Assembly (NCBI GenBank): GCA_024681495.1 | Contig: JAILAS010000136.1 | Coordinates: forward strand, 1 to 38,287 | Direction of reading: 5' to 3' | DNA length: 38,287 nt | DNA from: Eubacterium sp. | GTDB lineage: Bacteria; Bacillota; Clostridia; Lachnospirales; Lachnospiraceae | Shown here: positions 19,929-24,185 of the stretch, one piece after another | How the letters are laid out: each line of letters begins with the position of its first letter | Position numbering within the stretch: the first letter of the stretch is position 1 | Notes under the pieces: generated by a model | Seen by the model: only the letters and a program-made list of their open reading frames with translations | Database searches by the model: none | What the model was told of the DNA's origin: nothing | Position numbers and translations under genes: made by a program

Positions 19929-22310
19929 TCAAAGACTTTGGGAAGATTCCCGGGCCCTTCGGGCGGCGTCATTTTTCTTCATCTCCAGCCCTATCCGGTC
20001 GAACAACATAGTCAGGTACCTCATGGACGGCTCAGTCGTAATCGCAAAGAGGACGAACAGCATCACGCACTCCCTGGAAATGTAGCTGATGGCGAACAGG
20101 TCGTGAAGGAAGTATCCGCACAAAGCAAACCCGACCATGCATATTCCGATCACGGCCACGTGGAACTTGTTAAGGGGCACGGACAGCCTTATGAGTATCA
20201 TGAATCCGACGATTGCCATGAGGAAGGTAGCCGCCACCGAGATGTCGTCGTCCGATACCCCGAAGACCTGCGAGAACCTGACCATGGCAGCAATGACAAA
20301 GAAGTTCGTCAGTGCCGCGGGCATAACGCGGAGCAAAACCCGCCTCAGGAAGTGATGCTCCACCCTCTCGTTGTTGGGCTCCATCGCCAGAAGGAACGCC
20401 GGCAGCCCGATGTTAAACATACTTATAAGAGACACCTGGGACGGCGCCAGCGGGTAGTTCTGGAGATTGAATATGGTGAAGAGCGCCAGCAGGAACGAAA
20501 ATATATTCTTAACCAGGAACAACGTGGCCGATCTCTCAAGGTTGTTTATGGTCTGCCGTCCCTCGGCCACCACCTGCGGCATCCTGGAAAAGTCAGAGTC
20601 CAGGATGACCACCTGCGCCGCCTGCGAGGCCGCGTCCGAGCCGGAGGCCATCGCCACCGAGCAGTCCGCGGATTTCATCGCCAGGATGTCGTTTACTCCG
20701 TCGCCGGTCATGGCCACGGTGTGTCCCGCCCTCTTCAGCGCCCTTACGAGCATGCGCTTCTGATCGGGCGAGGTGCGTCCGAAGACCACCTTCTCCGCGG
20801 CGGCCCTGTCCATGTCCTCGGCGGTCTTAAGCGTGCGGCAGTCGACGTACCTGTCAGCCCCCTCGATACCTGCGGCCTTAGCCACCTCCGAGACGGTCAC
20901 CGGATTGTCACCCGATATGACCCTTATGTCCACGCTCTGCCTCTTAAAGAAGTCGATTGTCTCCGCGGCGTTCTTGCGGAGCGGGTTGAGGAGGCAGATG
21001 TATCCAATGGGCTCGACATCGTCCGCGGGAGCAATGGGGCTGTCCGCCGTAATCGTCCTGCCGCCGCCGACGCGGGCGAACGCCAGTACACGGTAGCCCT
21101 TAGCGGCGAGTTCCTCGGCCCGCTCGTCCACGCCAGAGCTCAATATCATCTCCGGGGCGCCGAGGACGTATGTGCCGCCGTCAAACGCGACGGAGCTGTA
21201 CTTATATTTGGAAGAAAACGACATGACGCTCGTCGGACGCCTGTTCCCCCTCACGGTGAAGTACTCGCGAAGGGCTTGCATGGTCTGATTGTCGTCCGGA
21301 ACGGCGGCTATATAGTCGCCGATTACCGCGTTTATTTCGTCATTAAACTTTTCACCGTCTCTGTATTTTTCCGAAGCCGGCACCACATTCCGAACCTGCA
21401 TATCGTTGTCTGTTATGGTTCCTGTCTTATCCAGGCACAAAACGTCCACCCTGGCGAGGGTCTCGATGCTCTTCATGTCGTGGAGCATGACCTGCTTGCG
21501 CGCGAGCTTCGCCGCGCTCACGGCCATCACCATGGTCACGAGAAGGTACAGGCCCTCGGGAATCATGCCTACCACGGCAGCCACCATGCCCTGAACGGCC
21601 GTCACGAGGTCGTTCTCCTGGACGTAGTAACTCTGATAGAAGAGGCCGATTCCGATGGGAATGATGGCGATTCCGGCGGCTATGACGATGCGGTTTATGT
21701 CACGAACCATCTCGGACTGCTCGGACTTCTTCATCTTGCCCGCCTCGTGCATAAGGCCGTTTATGTAGGAATCCTCTCCCACGGCCGTGAGACGCGCGTA
21801 GCACTTGCCGGAGACCACGAAGCTTCCGCTCATGAGGGTATCCCCGCTCTTCTTCTCTATCTCGTCGGCCTCGCCCGTCAGGAGAGACTCGTTCACGGCG
21901 GCCTCTCCGTCCACGACGCAGGCGTCCGCCGGTATCTGGCAGCCGGAGGTCAGCAATATGATGTCGTCAAGGACCAGCTCCTCCACGGCAATCTCAGAGA
22001 CCTCCCCGTCGCGCAGCACGCGCGCAGTGGGCTGATTGAGCAGCGAGAGCTTGTCGAGCACCCGCTTCGCGCTGATCTCCTGGAATATGCCTATGAACAT
22101 GTTCGCTATTACCACGACCATGAACGTGAGGCTCCGGTAGTCCTTCACCAATATGACCAGGATCGCAAGAACCGCGAAGATTAGGTTGAAGTATGTGAAT
22201 ATGTTCTCTTTAACTATCTGCAGCTCCGTCTTGGCGCTGTGATCGGCCTGGACGTTTACCGCCCCGGCGCGCATTCTGTCTCTGACCTGCTGTTCGTTTA
22301 ATCCGTTCAT
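19929..22310 (-). CDS. P-type cation-translocating ATPase (CtpE-like)
   Basis: 793 residues with the full P-type plan: N-terminal actuator domain with VNESLLTGEADEI, and a membrane motif MIPEGLYLLVTM before the phosphorylation site CLDKTGTIT (aspartate near residue 295). The nucleotide-binding domain follows, then the hinge TGDGVNDILAMKSADCSVAM and six C-terminal helices. The PEGL helix and the length place it among non-heavy-metal cation pumps. It looks most like the CtpE or 'cation-transporting ATPase E' group, for which calcium transport has been proposed in mycobacteria; the ion is not certain here. There are no CPC or metal-binding N-terminal motifs. Start ATG behind CGGAGAATACAG. It ends 84 nt before the GGDEF-EAL gene, with no clear terminator or promoter between, so read-through is possible. 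Confidence 0.9.
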   Translation of the reverse strand: MNGLNEQQVRDRMRAGAVNVQADHSAKTELQIVKENIFTYFNLIFAVLAILVILVKDYRSLTFMVVVIANMFIGIFQEISAKRVLDKLSLLNQPTARVLRDGEVSEIAVEELVLDDIILLTSGCQIPADACVVDGEAAVNESLLTGEADEIEKKSGDTLMSGSFVVSGKCYARLTAVGEDSYINGLMHEAGKMKKSEQSEMVRDINRIVIAAGIAIIPIGIGLFYQSYYVQENDLVTAVQGMVAAVVGMIPEGLYLLVTMVMAVSAAKLARKQVMLHDMKSIETLARVDVLCLDKTGTITDNDMQVRNVVPASEKYRDGEKFNDEINAVIGDYIAAVPDDNQTMQALREYFTVRGNRRPTSVMSFSSKYKYSSVAFDGGTYVLGAPEMILSSGVDERAEELAAKGYRVLAFARVGGGRTITADSPIAPADDVEPIGYICLLNPLRKNAAETIDFFKRQSVDIRVISGDNPVTVSEVAKAAGIEGADRYVDCRTLKTAEDMDRAAAEKVVFGRTSPDQKRMLVRALKRAGHTVAMTGDGVNDILAMKSADCSVAMASGSDAASQAAQVVILDSDFSRMPQVVAEGRQTINNLERSATLFLVKNIFSFLLALFTIFNLQNYPLAPSQVSLISMFNIGLPAFLLAMEPNNERVEHHFLRRVLLRVMPAALTNFFVIAAMVRFSQVFGVSDDDISVAATFLMAIVGFMILIRLSVPLNKFHVAVIGICMVGFALCGYFLHDLFAISYISRECVMLFVLFAITTEPSMRYLTMLFDRIGLEMKKNDAARRARESSQSL

Positions 22311-22606: not shown

Positions 22607-22676
22607 TGTGGATAGTGTGGATAACTTTGTTTATAAACGGGCTTTTTCGATTTTTTTAATCTAGTTTTGTTGATAA
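22607..22676. promoter_or_regulatory. Cluster of three DnaA-box-like sites
   Basis: TGTGGATAA at 22616-22624 is a perfect DnaA box (TTATCCACA, reverse complement). TGTGGATAG at 22607-22615 and TGTTGATAA at 22668-22676 each differ by one base. All three face the same way, and the first two abut. The surroundings are AT-rich. No replication gene is nearby, so this may be a DnaA regulatory or titration site or simply chance in AT-rich DNA. Confidence 0.4.
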
Positions 22677-22751: not shown

Positions 22752-22947
22752 AAATTGGCTCCTTCATCTTGCATTTTTATCTTGCAAATGACGGAGCAAT
22801 TTATAAAATAAAAGAGTCACCCACTACCTTTAGGTGGTGGGTGACTCTTTAACAGGTGCTGGGTACAAACCCAGTACCTGTAAGATTGCGAAGCAATCTG
22901 GTTTTATAACGAGCAAATTTAGAATAAATTTGTGAGTTTTGATGCTC
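22752..22947. other. Hairpin-dense element: palindromic mobile-element remnant or structured RNA
   Basis: Five stem-loops follow one another. H1 (22752-22802) is imperfect, with AAATTGgCTCC opposite GGAGCAATTT. H2 (22811-22850) has 18-bp arms and one G-T pair, centred on ACCTTTAGGT. H3 (22852-22881) has 13-bp arms and one G-T pair. H4 (22883-22899) is AGATTGC-gaa-GCAATCT, and H5 (22914-22932) is CAAATTT-agaat-AAATTTG. GAGC (22911-22914) can also pair with GCTC (22944-22947) around H5. No transposase or other coding frame is present. Strong palindromes such as H2 resemble the subterminal hairpins of IS200/IS605-type elements, so a non-autonomous derivative is one reading. A structured non-coding RNA is the other. 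Neither can be settled from one copy. Confidence 0.55.
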
Positions 22948-23018: not shown

Positions 23019-24185
23019 TCAATTAAAAATTCGCCTTACGGTGATGATCGATCTGTAGTTGGCGGGACTCGTGGTCTTTATTCCGCTCTTTTTATTGCTG
23101 GCGTGTACAATGGTGTTGTTACCGATGTAAATCGCGCAATGTCCGCTGTAGCAGATGATGTCTCCGGCCTTCATCTTAGAGGTGCTGACCGACTTGCCCA
23201 CCGAACGCATCGAGCTCGATGAGTGGGGAAGGCTCTTTCCGAAGTGCTTATATACGGAAAGGACGAATCCCGAGCAGTCACAGCCGTCTGTAAGGCTGGT
23301 TCCGCCGTACTTGTACGGATTGCCCACGAACTGCATCGCGTAGGATGCAACAGCCGCTCCGGATACGCTGCTCGATTCGGAGTCATCGTCGGATGCCAGG
23401 TCGGAATCACTGTCGGAGTCCTTATCGGAGTCCTTATCGGAGTCCTTATCGGAATCCTTCTTGGAATCGCTCTTGGACTTGTCCTTCTTGGAATCCTTCT
23501 TATCGGAGTCCTTATCTGACTTACTGCCGCTCTCCTTATCCGACTTCTCTTCGGAACTGTCGGAATCTTTATCGTCCGAGCTGTCCTTCTCCTCAGAGGC
23601 GCTATCCTCGTCTTCTTCGTCGGATTCGCTCTCGTCGTACGTGAGCTCCTCGCCTACCCAGTATGTATCTACATACTCAGCGCTGACATAGCCGTCGTCG
23701 GCAGCCAGCTTATAGAAGCCGTTCTCCTCGCCGGAGAGCTCCAGCTCCTCGCCCCTGGGAAGCAATCCCAAAACCGACGAGTCCGCGTCTGCCTCGGCGC
23801 GTACCTTCAGGGTCTGTGTGTTAACAACGCCAATGAGAATCTCTCCCTCGTGGCTCTCCTCAGCCTCCTGCTGCTCCGCCTGCTCTGCCGCTTCCTCGGA
23901 AGCCTCAGCCATGGCAACGATTTCTCCCAATGCCTCTTCCACAGCGCCCGTCGCGCCGGCAGAAGCGGTATCTGAAGTCTCCTCCTGCTGCTTAACCGCA
24001 GAGTTGGAAACTGCGTCGGCAACCCGAAGCTTCGCGGCCGAGGCATCTGCCTGAGCCACATAGCTGGCCAGCTGGTCTGCAGCGCCGCTGCCTGACGATG
24101 CCAAAACCGCTACGGGTGAAGCACTGCCAATCGTAGCTGCGCCTGCCACTATGCAGGTCGCCATAATTTTTGCTCTTTGATTCAT
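23019..24185 (-). CDS. Secreted NlpC/P60 cell-wall hydrolase with SH3b domain
   Basis: 388 residues. A signal peptide (about 1-29, MNQRAKIMATCIVAGAATIG...VLA) is followed by an Ala/Glu-rich coiled segment (30-115). A bacterial SH3-like domain comes next (about 118-172, TQTLKVRAEADADSSVLGLLPRGEELEL). A long Ser/Asp/Lys linker (about 185-270) contains repeated KDSDKDSD units. The catalytic NlpC/P60 domain is 275-388, with Cys304 in DCSGF, His349 in GHCAIYIG and His361 in IVHA as the usual triad. It should cut stem-peptide bonds in peptidoglycan outside the membrane. Start ATG behind GAGGAGTAGAGT. It has its own promoter, a palindromic operator in the leader and a terminator. The linker repeats could vary in number between strains. 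Confidence 0.93.
   Translation of the reverse strand: MNQRAKIMATCIVAGAATIGSASPVAVLASSGSGAADQLASYVAQADASAAKLRVADAVSNSAVKQQEETSDTASAGATGAVEEALGEIVAMAEASEEAAEQAEQQEAEESHEGEILIGVVNTQTLKVRAEADADSSVLGLLPRGEELELSGEENGFYKLAADDGYVSAEYVDTYWVGEELTYDESESDEEDEDSASEEKDSSDDKDSDSSEEKSDKESGSKSDKDSDKKDSKKDKSKSDSKKDSDKDSDKDSDKDSDSDSDLASDDDSESSSVSGAAVASYAMQFVGNPYKYGGTSLTDGCDCSGFVLSVYKHFGKSLPHSSSSMRSVGKSVSTSKMKAGDIICYSGHCAIYIGNNTIVHASNKKSGIKTTSPANYRSIITVRRIFN

Follow-up and report, generated by a model that had tools for sequence, protein, structure and literature searches.

A gene-less, structured mobile DNA element of about 140 bases scattered through Lachnospiraceae genomes

A run of strong hairpins at positions 22752-22947 of a 38,287-nucleotide stretch of Eubacterium sp. 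DNA (hereafter the window) raises the question of whether it is a mobile element or a structured RNA. On the + strand, the folding energy of the run was -93.9 kcal/mol, compared with -41.6 ± 4.1 for shuffled sequences (n = 200, none as low; z = -12.9), and the minus strand folded more weakly (z = -10.1). An earlier reading of the sequence alone had described strong hairpins in a region with no coding frame, including stems of 18 and 13 bp with single G-T pairs. Both stems were confirmed, each with one G·T pair on the + strand, and the list of open reading frames contained no long frame here, the sole overlap being a 61-aa chance ORF reaching in. Neither the run nor the element defined below matched an Rfam family above the gathering threshold; weak miRNA-type matches were attributed to chance. 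The family to which the element belongs is a previously undescribed gene-less mobile DNA element of about 140 bases, scattered through Lachnospiraceae genomes. A literature search, with most subscription papers outside its reach, found no description of it.

The five hairpins had been taken as one unit. Four of them do belong to the element (Table 1), and the first, an imperfect hairpin at 22758-22796 (GGCTCCTTCATCTTGCA...TTGCAAATGACGGAGC), lies outside it and was not seen as a hairpin in the element's relatives. Matches to this outer hairpin at two other loci (L007 and L010) fell in apparent coding repeats and were discarded. The proposed GAGC/GCTC outer closure (22911-22914/22944-22947) overshoots the element end and is not conserved. 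Two features were absent from that reading, namely an outer helix of 8-9 bp and a tandem G·A closure of hairpin 4. In the window, the element stands alone, inserted with a P-type ATPase gene on one side and an NlpC/P60-type gene on the other. The upstream region of the ATPase gene also holds two TGTGGATA-type DnaA-box-like repeats (22608-22632), and similar GTGGATAA motifs occur at the sister locus (L182).

Table 1. Coordinates of the element, its parts and the flanking genes in the window.
Feature	Position	Strand	Description
Whole element	22805-22943	+	139 nt, AAAATAAAAG...GTTTTGAT; aligned with 23 relatives
Target-type left flank TTTAT	22800-22804	+	Left-flank logo WATATAT; interrupted ORF
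Outer helix, 5' strand	22802-22809	+	3 target bases and 5 element bases; RNAalifold, pair counts, 21 subfamilies
Hairpin 1	22811-22850	+	18 bp, 22811-22828/22833-22850; one G·T; loop TTTA
Hairpin 2	22852-22881	+	13 bp, 22852-22864/22869-22881; one G·T
Hairpin 3	22883-22899	+	7 bp, GAA loop; both-side changes in 4 of 5 counted pairs
Outer helix, 3' strand (presumed guide)	22901-22908	+	GTTTTATA; immediately 5' of hairpin 4
Hairpin 4	22909-22937	+	Closed by A-T, C-G and tandem G·A (ACGA-stem-GAGT); pattern searches
3' terminus	22938-22943	+	TTTGAT; TTAAC/TTGAC in relatives
P-type ATPase gene	19929-22310	minus	Flank of the element; named by eye
SH3/NlpC (NlpC/P60-type) gene	23019-24185	minus	Other flank; named by eye

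The element occurs once in its own genome, which is 82% complete (1.9 Mb in 218 contigs). The copy-number check that the sequence-only reading proposed thus found no second copy there, and strong conservation in relatives with many copies of defined ends. A DNA search of 195 related genomes returned a 71% match in an uncultured Eubacterium (G067), where three tandem units of ~101 bp lacking hairpin 1 occupy positions 10244-10560 of contig C8 (L011, L018), with tRNA-like sequence adjoining. The core pattern, TTTATAACGAGC-hairpin-GYGAGT, was present in at least 118 stretches of GTDB genomes; the records listed were all from Lachnospiraceae, Butyrivibrio or the G067 Eubacterium, with dozens in Butyrivibrio sp. 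MC2013. A 145-nt query recovered at least 40 full copies from MC2013, and pattern searches 49 right and 45 left ends. Copies on its 392-kb contig C2 were 98-100% identical, and 7 of the 10 full ones showed 100% identity over 145 nt. A covariance model of 24 diverse copies, with at most 7 candidates scored per genome, detected the element in 34 of the 397 host-family (Lachnospiraceae) genomes, across 33 genera. The element carries no ORF, and 61 of 62 scored copies were intergenic, many soon after ORF ends. Truncated copies, both 5' and 3', also exist. Plasmids searched for the element yielded none, and 15 pattern matches in viral contigs were attributed to chance, as the sequences lacked the element's hairpins on inspection.

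The ends of the element were sharp. In a set of 71 copies, the left flanks were random to within ~14 nt of TCAAGATA, after which WATATAT emerged, and the right ends read GAGTTTAAC with random sequence beyond. At five loci (L033, L035, L053, L067 and L101, of which L053 and L067 share a right flank), a right end directly abutted a left end (...TTAAC/AAAATAATC...), locating the element ends to the exact base; together with the sharp boundaries, these junctions set the limits of the window element and its TTTAT target given in Table 1. The covariance-model score of the window element was 129.7 bits. Such abutments are what a circular or tandem intermediate would give.

One copy (L131) interrupts a PF09820-like ORF (named by eye). 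The frame is restored when its flanks are joined at TATAT^ATATAGG, and a homologue without the insertion (L190) aligns through the site; TATAT was therefore supplied by the target, which makes a duplication unnecessary. This target origin of the flank bases was demonstrated in the one ORF and extends to the TTTAA-type subfamilies by analogy. When relatives were searched locally for orthologous sites lacking the element, the PF09820-like ORF was the only case. At the window locus, a sister genome (G001) has the identical gene pair without the element, separated by 305 nt instead of 709. Insertion thus occurred 3' of a fixed, short, AT-rich target without target duplication.

RNAalifold and pair counts agreed on an 8-bp outer helix enclosing hairpins 1-3, followed by hairpin 4. 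Double-change cells numbered 114, compared with 31.7 ± 6.1 in shuffles (0 of 500 reached 114) and 3-12 when the partners were slid. The three inner hairpins covaried strongly, and the outer helix covaried too. Hairpin 4 showed zero double changes in the 24-copy alignment, where its ACGAGCAAA is invariant; its support comes from the ATGAGC/GCGAAT variants of divergent subfamilies, in which C-G becomes T-A and the two G·A pairs are kept. Among the alignment pairs, G·U cells exceeded A·C cells (59 vs 18), indicating that the + strand is the folding strand. The sequence-only reading had offered a new structured RNA as one possibility; the structure is indeed conserved, but conservation alone cannot separate RNA from single-stranded DNA.

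The outer helix was mostly 8-11 bp long in 21 subfamilies with unrelated sequences. In divergent subfamilies it was completely re-written yet kept, as in TAACCGAAT/ATTCGGTTA, TAACGCAGT/ACTGCGTTA, TGAACGCAG/CTGCGTTCA, TAGCATATC/GATATGCTA and TATAAAGCA/TGCTTTATA, where the strands were picked by hand and the covariance model that found these copies itself rewards pairing. Hairpin 4 always followed immediately 3' of the helix, whose first three base pairs occupy the flank that is target by the L131 case. The presumed pairing partner of the target is located 5' of the right-hand hairpin, instead of 5' of the left hairpin foot, where the guide tetranucleotide for the left cleavage of an IS200/IS605 element is expected.

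The copies were also oriented with respect to replication. Of 106 copies, 90 had a positive GC skew along the element strand. In convergent or divergent gene contexts with adjacent genes masked, 25 copies lay on the leading strand and 5 did not, so neighbouring genes do not account for the bias. In a second set, drawn from other subfamilies and nine further genomes, 38 of 43 copies lay on the leading strand (38 to 5, p = 2.5e-7); these counts include copies from related genomes, and not all are independent. On MC2013 contig C2, the skew switches near 115 kb, matching gene orientation, with eight copies concordant and three discordant. We must also note that the window copy is an exception, lying against the local skew (about -0.08). 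The element strand corresponds in sequence to the leading strand and so serves as the lagging-strand template. IS608 and ISDra2 use the lagging-strand template and guide pairing (PMC6006769); this template is also the substrate of the group II intron RmInt1, which lacks an endonuclease and pairs with its 5' target (PMC8914252).

Past mobility, defined ends, absence of duplication, an AT-rich target, strand preference and a conserved fold are therefore established for this family. The explanation that we favour, and consider probable, is a non-autonomous element mobilised as a single, folded strand of DNA, with a guide pairing to the target and a Y1/HUH enzyme supplied in trans. Once exposed on the lagging-strand template, the top strand would fold into the outer helix enclosing three hairpins. 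The enzyme would bind the tandem-G·A hairpin adjoining this helix, and the guide 5' of hairpin 4 would pair, in one unbroken helix, with both the element 5' end and the last ~3 target bases. In consequence, the target end and the element end would lie side by side for joining. The right-hand cut would fall after TTRAC/TTGAT, and a single-strand endonuclease seated on the tandem-G·A hairpin may both cut and join the strands. The likeliest candidate for this enzyme is a single-strand transposase of the Y1/HUH type, working in trans. Against the explanation count the carriers in which no PF01797 gene was found, the unusual placement of the presumed guide, the orientation of the window copy and the truncated copies.

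Several traits are shared with IS200/IS605 elements and their PATE-type derivatives, including subterminal hairpins near both ends, a short fixed target on the 5' side without target-site duplication, the lagging-strand-template orientation (the window copy excepted) and, presumably, internal guide pairing with the target. However, no autonomous tnpA-bearing copy with the element's ends was found, and the helix in which the left end and target pair with bases 5' of the right-hand hairpin encloses three extra hairpins. The presumed guide, located 5' of the right-hand hairpin, pairs with the left end, whereas the textbook IS608 guide is placed otherwise. The IS200/IS605-type assignment suggested from the sequence comes close in mode of action, given the many defined-end copies, the lack of duplication and the orientation; strict membership is not supported, since no TnpA with these ends was found and the guide is unusually placed.

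The element also resembles REP sequences and REPtrons (TnpA-REP) in being an intergenic hairpin of high copy number with a short conserved foot and an irregular, mismatched stem. REPs are defined by a GTAG or GTGG foot and a length of 21-65 nt (PMC6006769), whereas the present elements span 139-160 nt, have a fixed target and exact ends, and show an ACGA/TGA foot with tandem G·A closure. Moreover, no consistent RAYT gene accompanies them, and no TnpA-REP gene was flanked by the element. Lacking both shared transposase-gene ends and a GTAG foot, the element works like IS200/IS605 or REP elements and belongs to neither family.

The search for the mobilising enzyme covered Y1 and reverse-transcriptase (RT) genes. 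PF01797 transposases were absent from 10 of 18 carrier genomes, several of which are probably incomplete MAGs, and from the window's 82%-complete genome; those in MC2013, AD3010 and G382 have other ends than the element. BLAST, end inspection and motif scans of Y1 loci revealed no partner sharing the element's ends, and no Y1 or RT gene found had ACGA-hairpin-GAGT within about 1.5 kb by motif scan. A Y1 sequence ~1 kb from one element (L279) was rejected as a partner, being an 88-aa decayed transposase fragment. RVT_1 had no match in 15 of 21 carrier genomes, AD3010 included, and was present in 6. Since the carriers include possibly incomplete MAGs, the absence of an enzyme is weak evidence.

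A possible, though unlikely, alternative is a novel re-programmable single-strand insertion system, in which guide, 5' end and target form one helix and the enzyme is neither a classical IS200 TnpA nor an RT; the element would then be a compact multi-helix DNA (or RNA) recognised via its tandem-G·A hairpin. Guide and target would then vary in step across subfamilies (TATA/TATA, TTA/TAA, TCA/TGA and CTA/TAG). We consider it distinctly unlikely that some other single-strand-specific enzyme, such as a relaxase/Rep-type HUH protein or a folded-ssDNA recombinase, is responsible. In favour of this reading, several carriers lack both Y1 and RT while the single-strand signature is strong; against it, no candidate gene was found, and the gaps may reflect incomplete MAGs.

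It is improbable that the element is a retroelement that is transcribed into an RNA, which reverse-splices into or is otherwise joined to the single-stranded DNA of the target at the fork before a group II-type or other RT copies it in trans. Target pairing and lagging-strand bias would fit endonuclease-less group II introns like RmInt1 (PMC8914252), and the conserved structure could be that of an RNA. Nevertheless, the element differs from RmInt1-type introns in size and ends, being too small and beginning with AAAA rather than GUGYG; it has no Rfam intron match and no recognisable intron core, RT was not found in most carriers, and the abutting right and left ends also argue against this origin. 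A retro-type 5'-truncation signature was first suspected and was dropped in view of the 3'-truncated copies, truncation affecting both ends and not mainly the 5' one.

Similarly slim is the probability of a host-useful structured RNA (a 3' UTR element or small RNA) that was spread by recombination and kept for its RNA function. The strong covariation with G·U bias would suit such an RNA, as would the intergenic position of nearly all scored copies, many close after ORF ends, and the pairs of outer helix and G·A hairpin after tuf- and yebC-like genes (L195, L194, L196). That identical copies have recently multiplied at unrelated sites argues against it, as do the absence of the element at the orthologous place in the sister species and an orientation that tracks replication even where neighbouring genes are neutral; no conserved gene context was seen. 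It is extremely improbable that a DDE transposase moved the element as a conventional MITE in which the hairpins are passengers: the element is short, gene-less and of high copy number, and hairpin-bearing repeats of such appearance, with terminal inverted repeats and AT-rich flanks, occur in AD3010 (L183-L191, L203-L208), but it has no terminal inverted repeat (AAAATAATC... vs ...GAGTTTAAC), no target duplication and a replication-strand bias.

The family provides an assignment for much unannotated intergenic sequence in a major gut and rumen bacterial group. Under the favoured single-strand mechanism, its subfamilies form a natural series in which guide and presumed target changed together, making target choice by base pairing directly testable, and they give a clear search for the missing enzyme.

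Other repeats were noted alongside. At four loci (L195, L193, L194 and L196), a long perfect hairpin followed by ACGA-hairpin-GAGT lies immediately 3' of a stop codon, the genes concerned including tuf and yebC (named by eye); this arrangement is a minimal form, outer helix plus hairpin 4, of the element plan. The Clostridiales-1 RNA (RF01699) is likewise a structured repeat of the same bacterial group, and its L203 copy (137 bits) contains the same CGAG/CGAG hairpin module as the element. The element itself has no match to RF01699, whereas the AD3010 copies of the latter have terminal inverted repeats around CGCCAAAAGT and AT-rich flanks. At L203-L208 these repeats are flanked by inverted ATGATTAAAGCGCCAAAAGT / ACTTTTGGCGTCCGAATCAT and AT-rich direct repeats, so that the Clostridiales-1 'RNA' in AD3010 looks like a TIR-type MITE. 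A longer TIR-type repeat (L183-L191; AD3010, CAMVGV and RGIG3735) starts with ATGATTCGGACGCCAAAAGT and contains the module ACGAGCAAACGC...GCGTTTGCGAGT. In AD3010, a Clostridiales-1-type repeat is apparently inserted in the left end of an element of the present family (L207), a nesting that could date the two. Finally, a short hairpin repeat, TGTCAACTACCCACCACCTAAAGGTAGTGGGTTT..CCTATGACATACGAAAGGATTTATTTATG, occurs in several copies (L006, L012, L014, L016, L019 and L020, in G022 and G053), some of them just before start codons.
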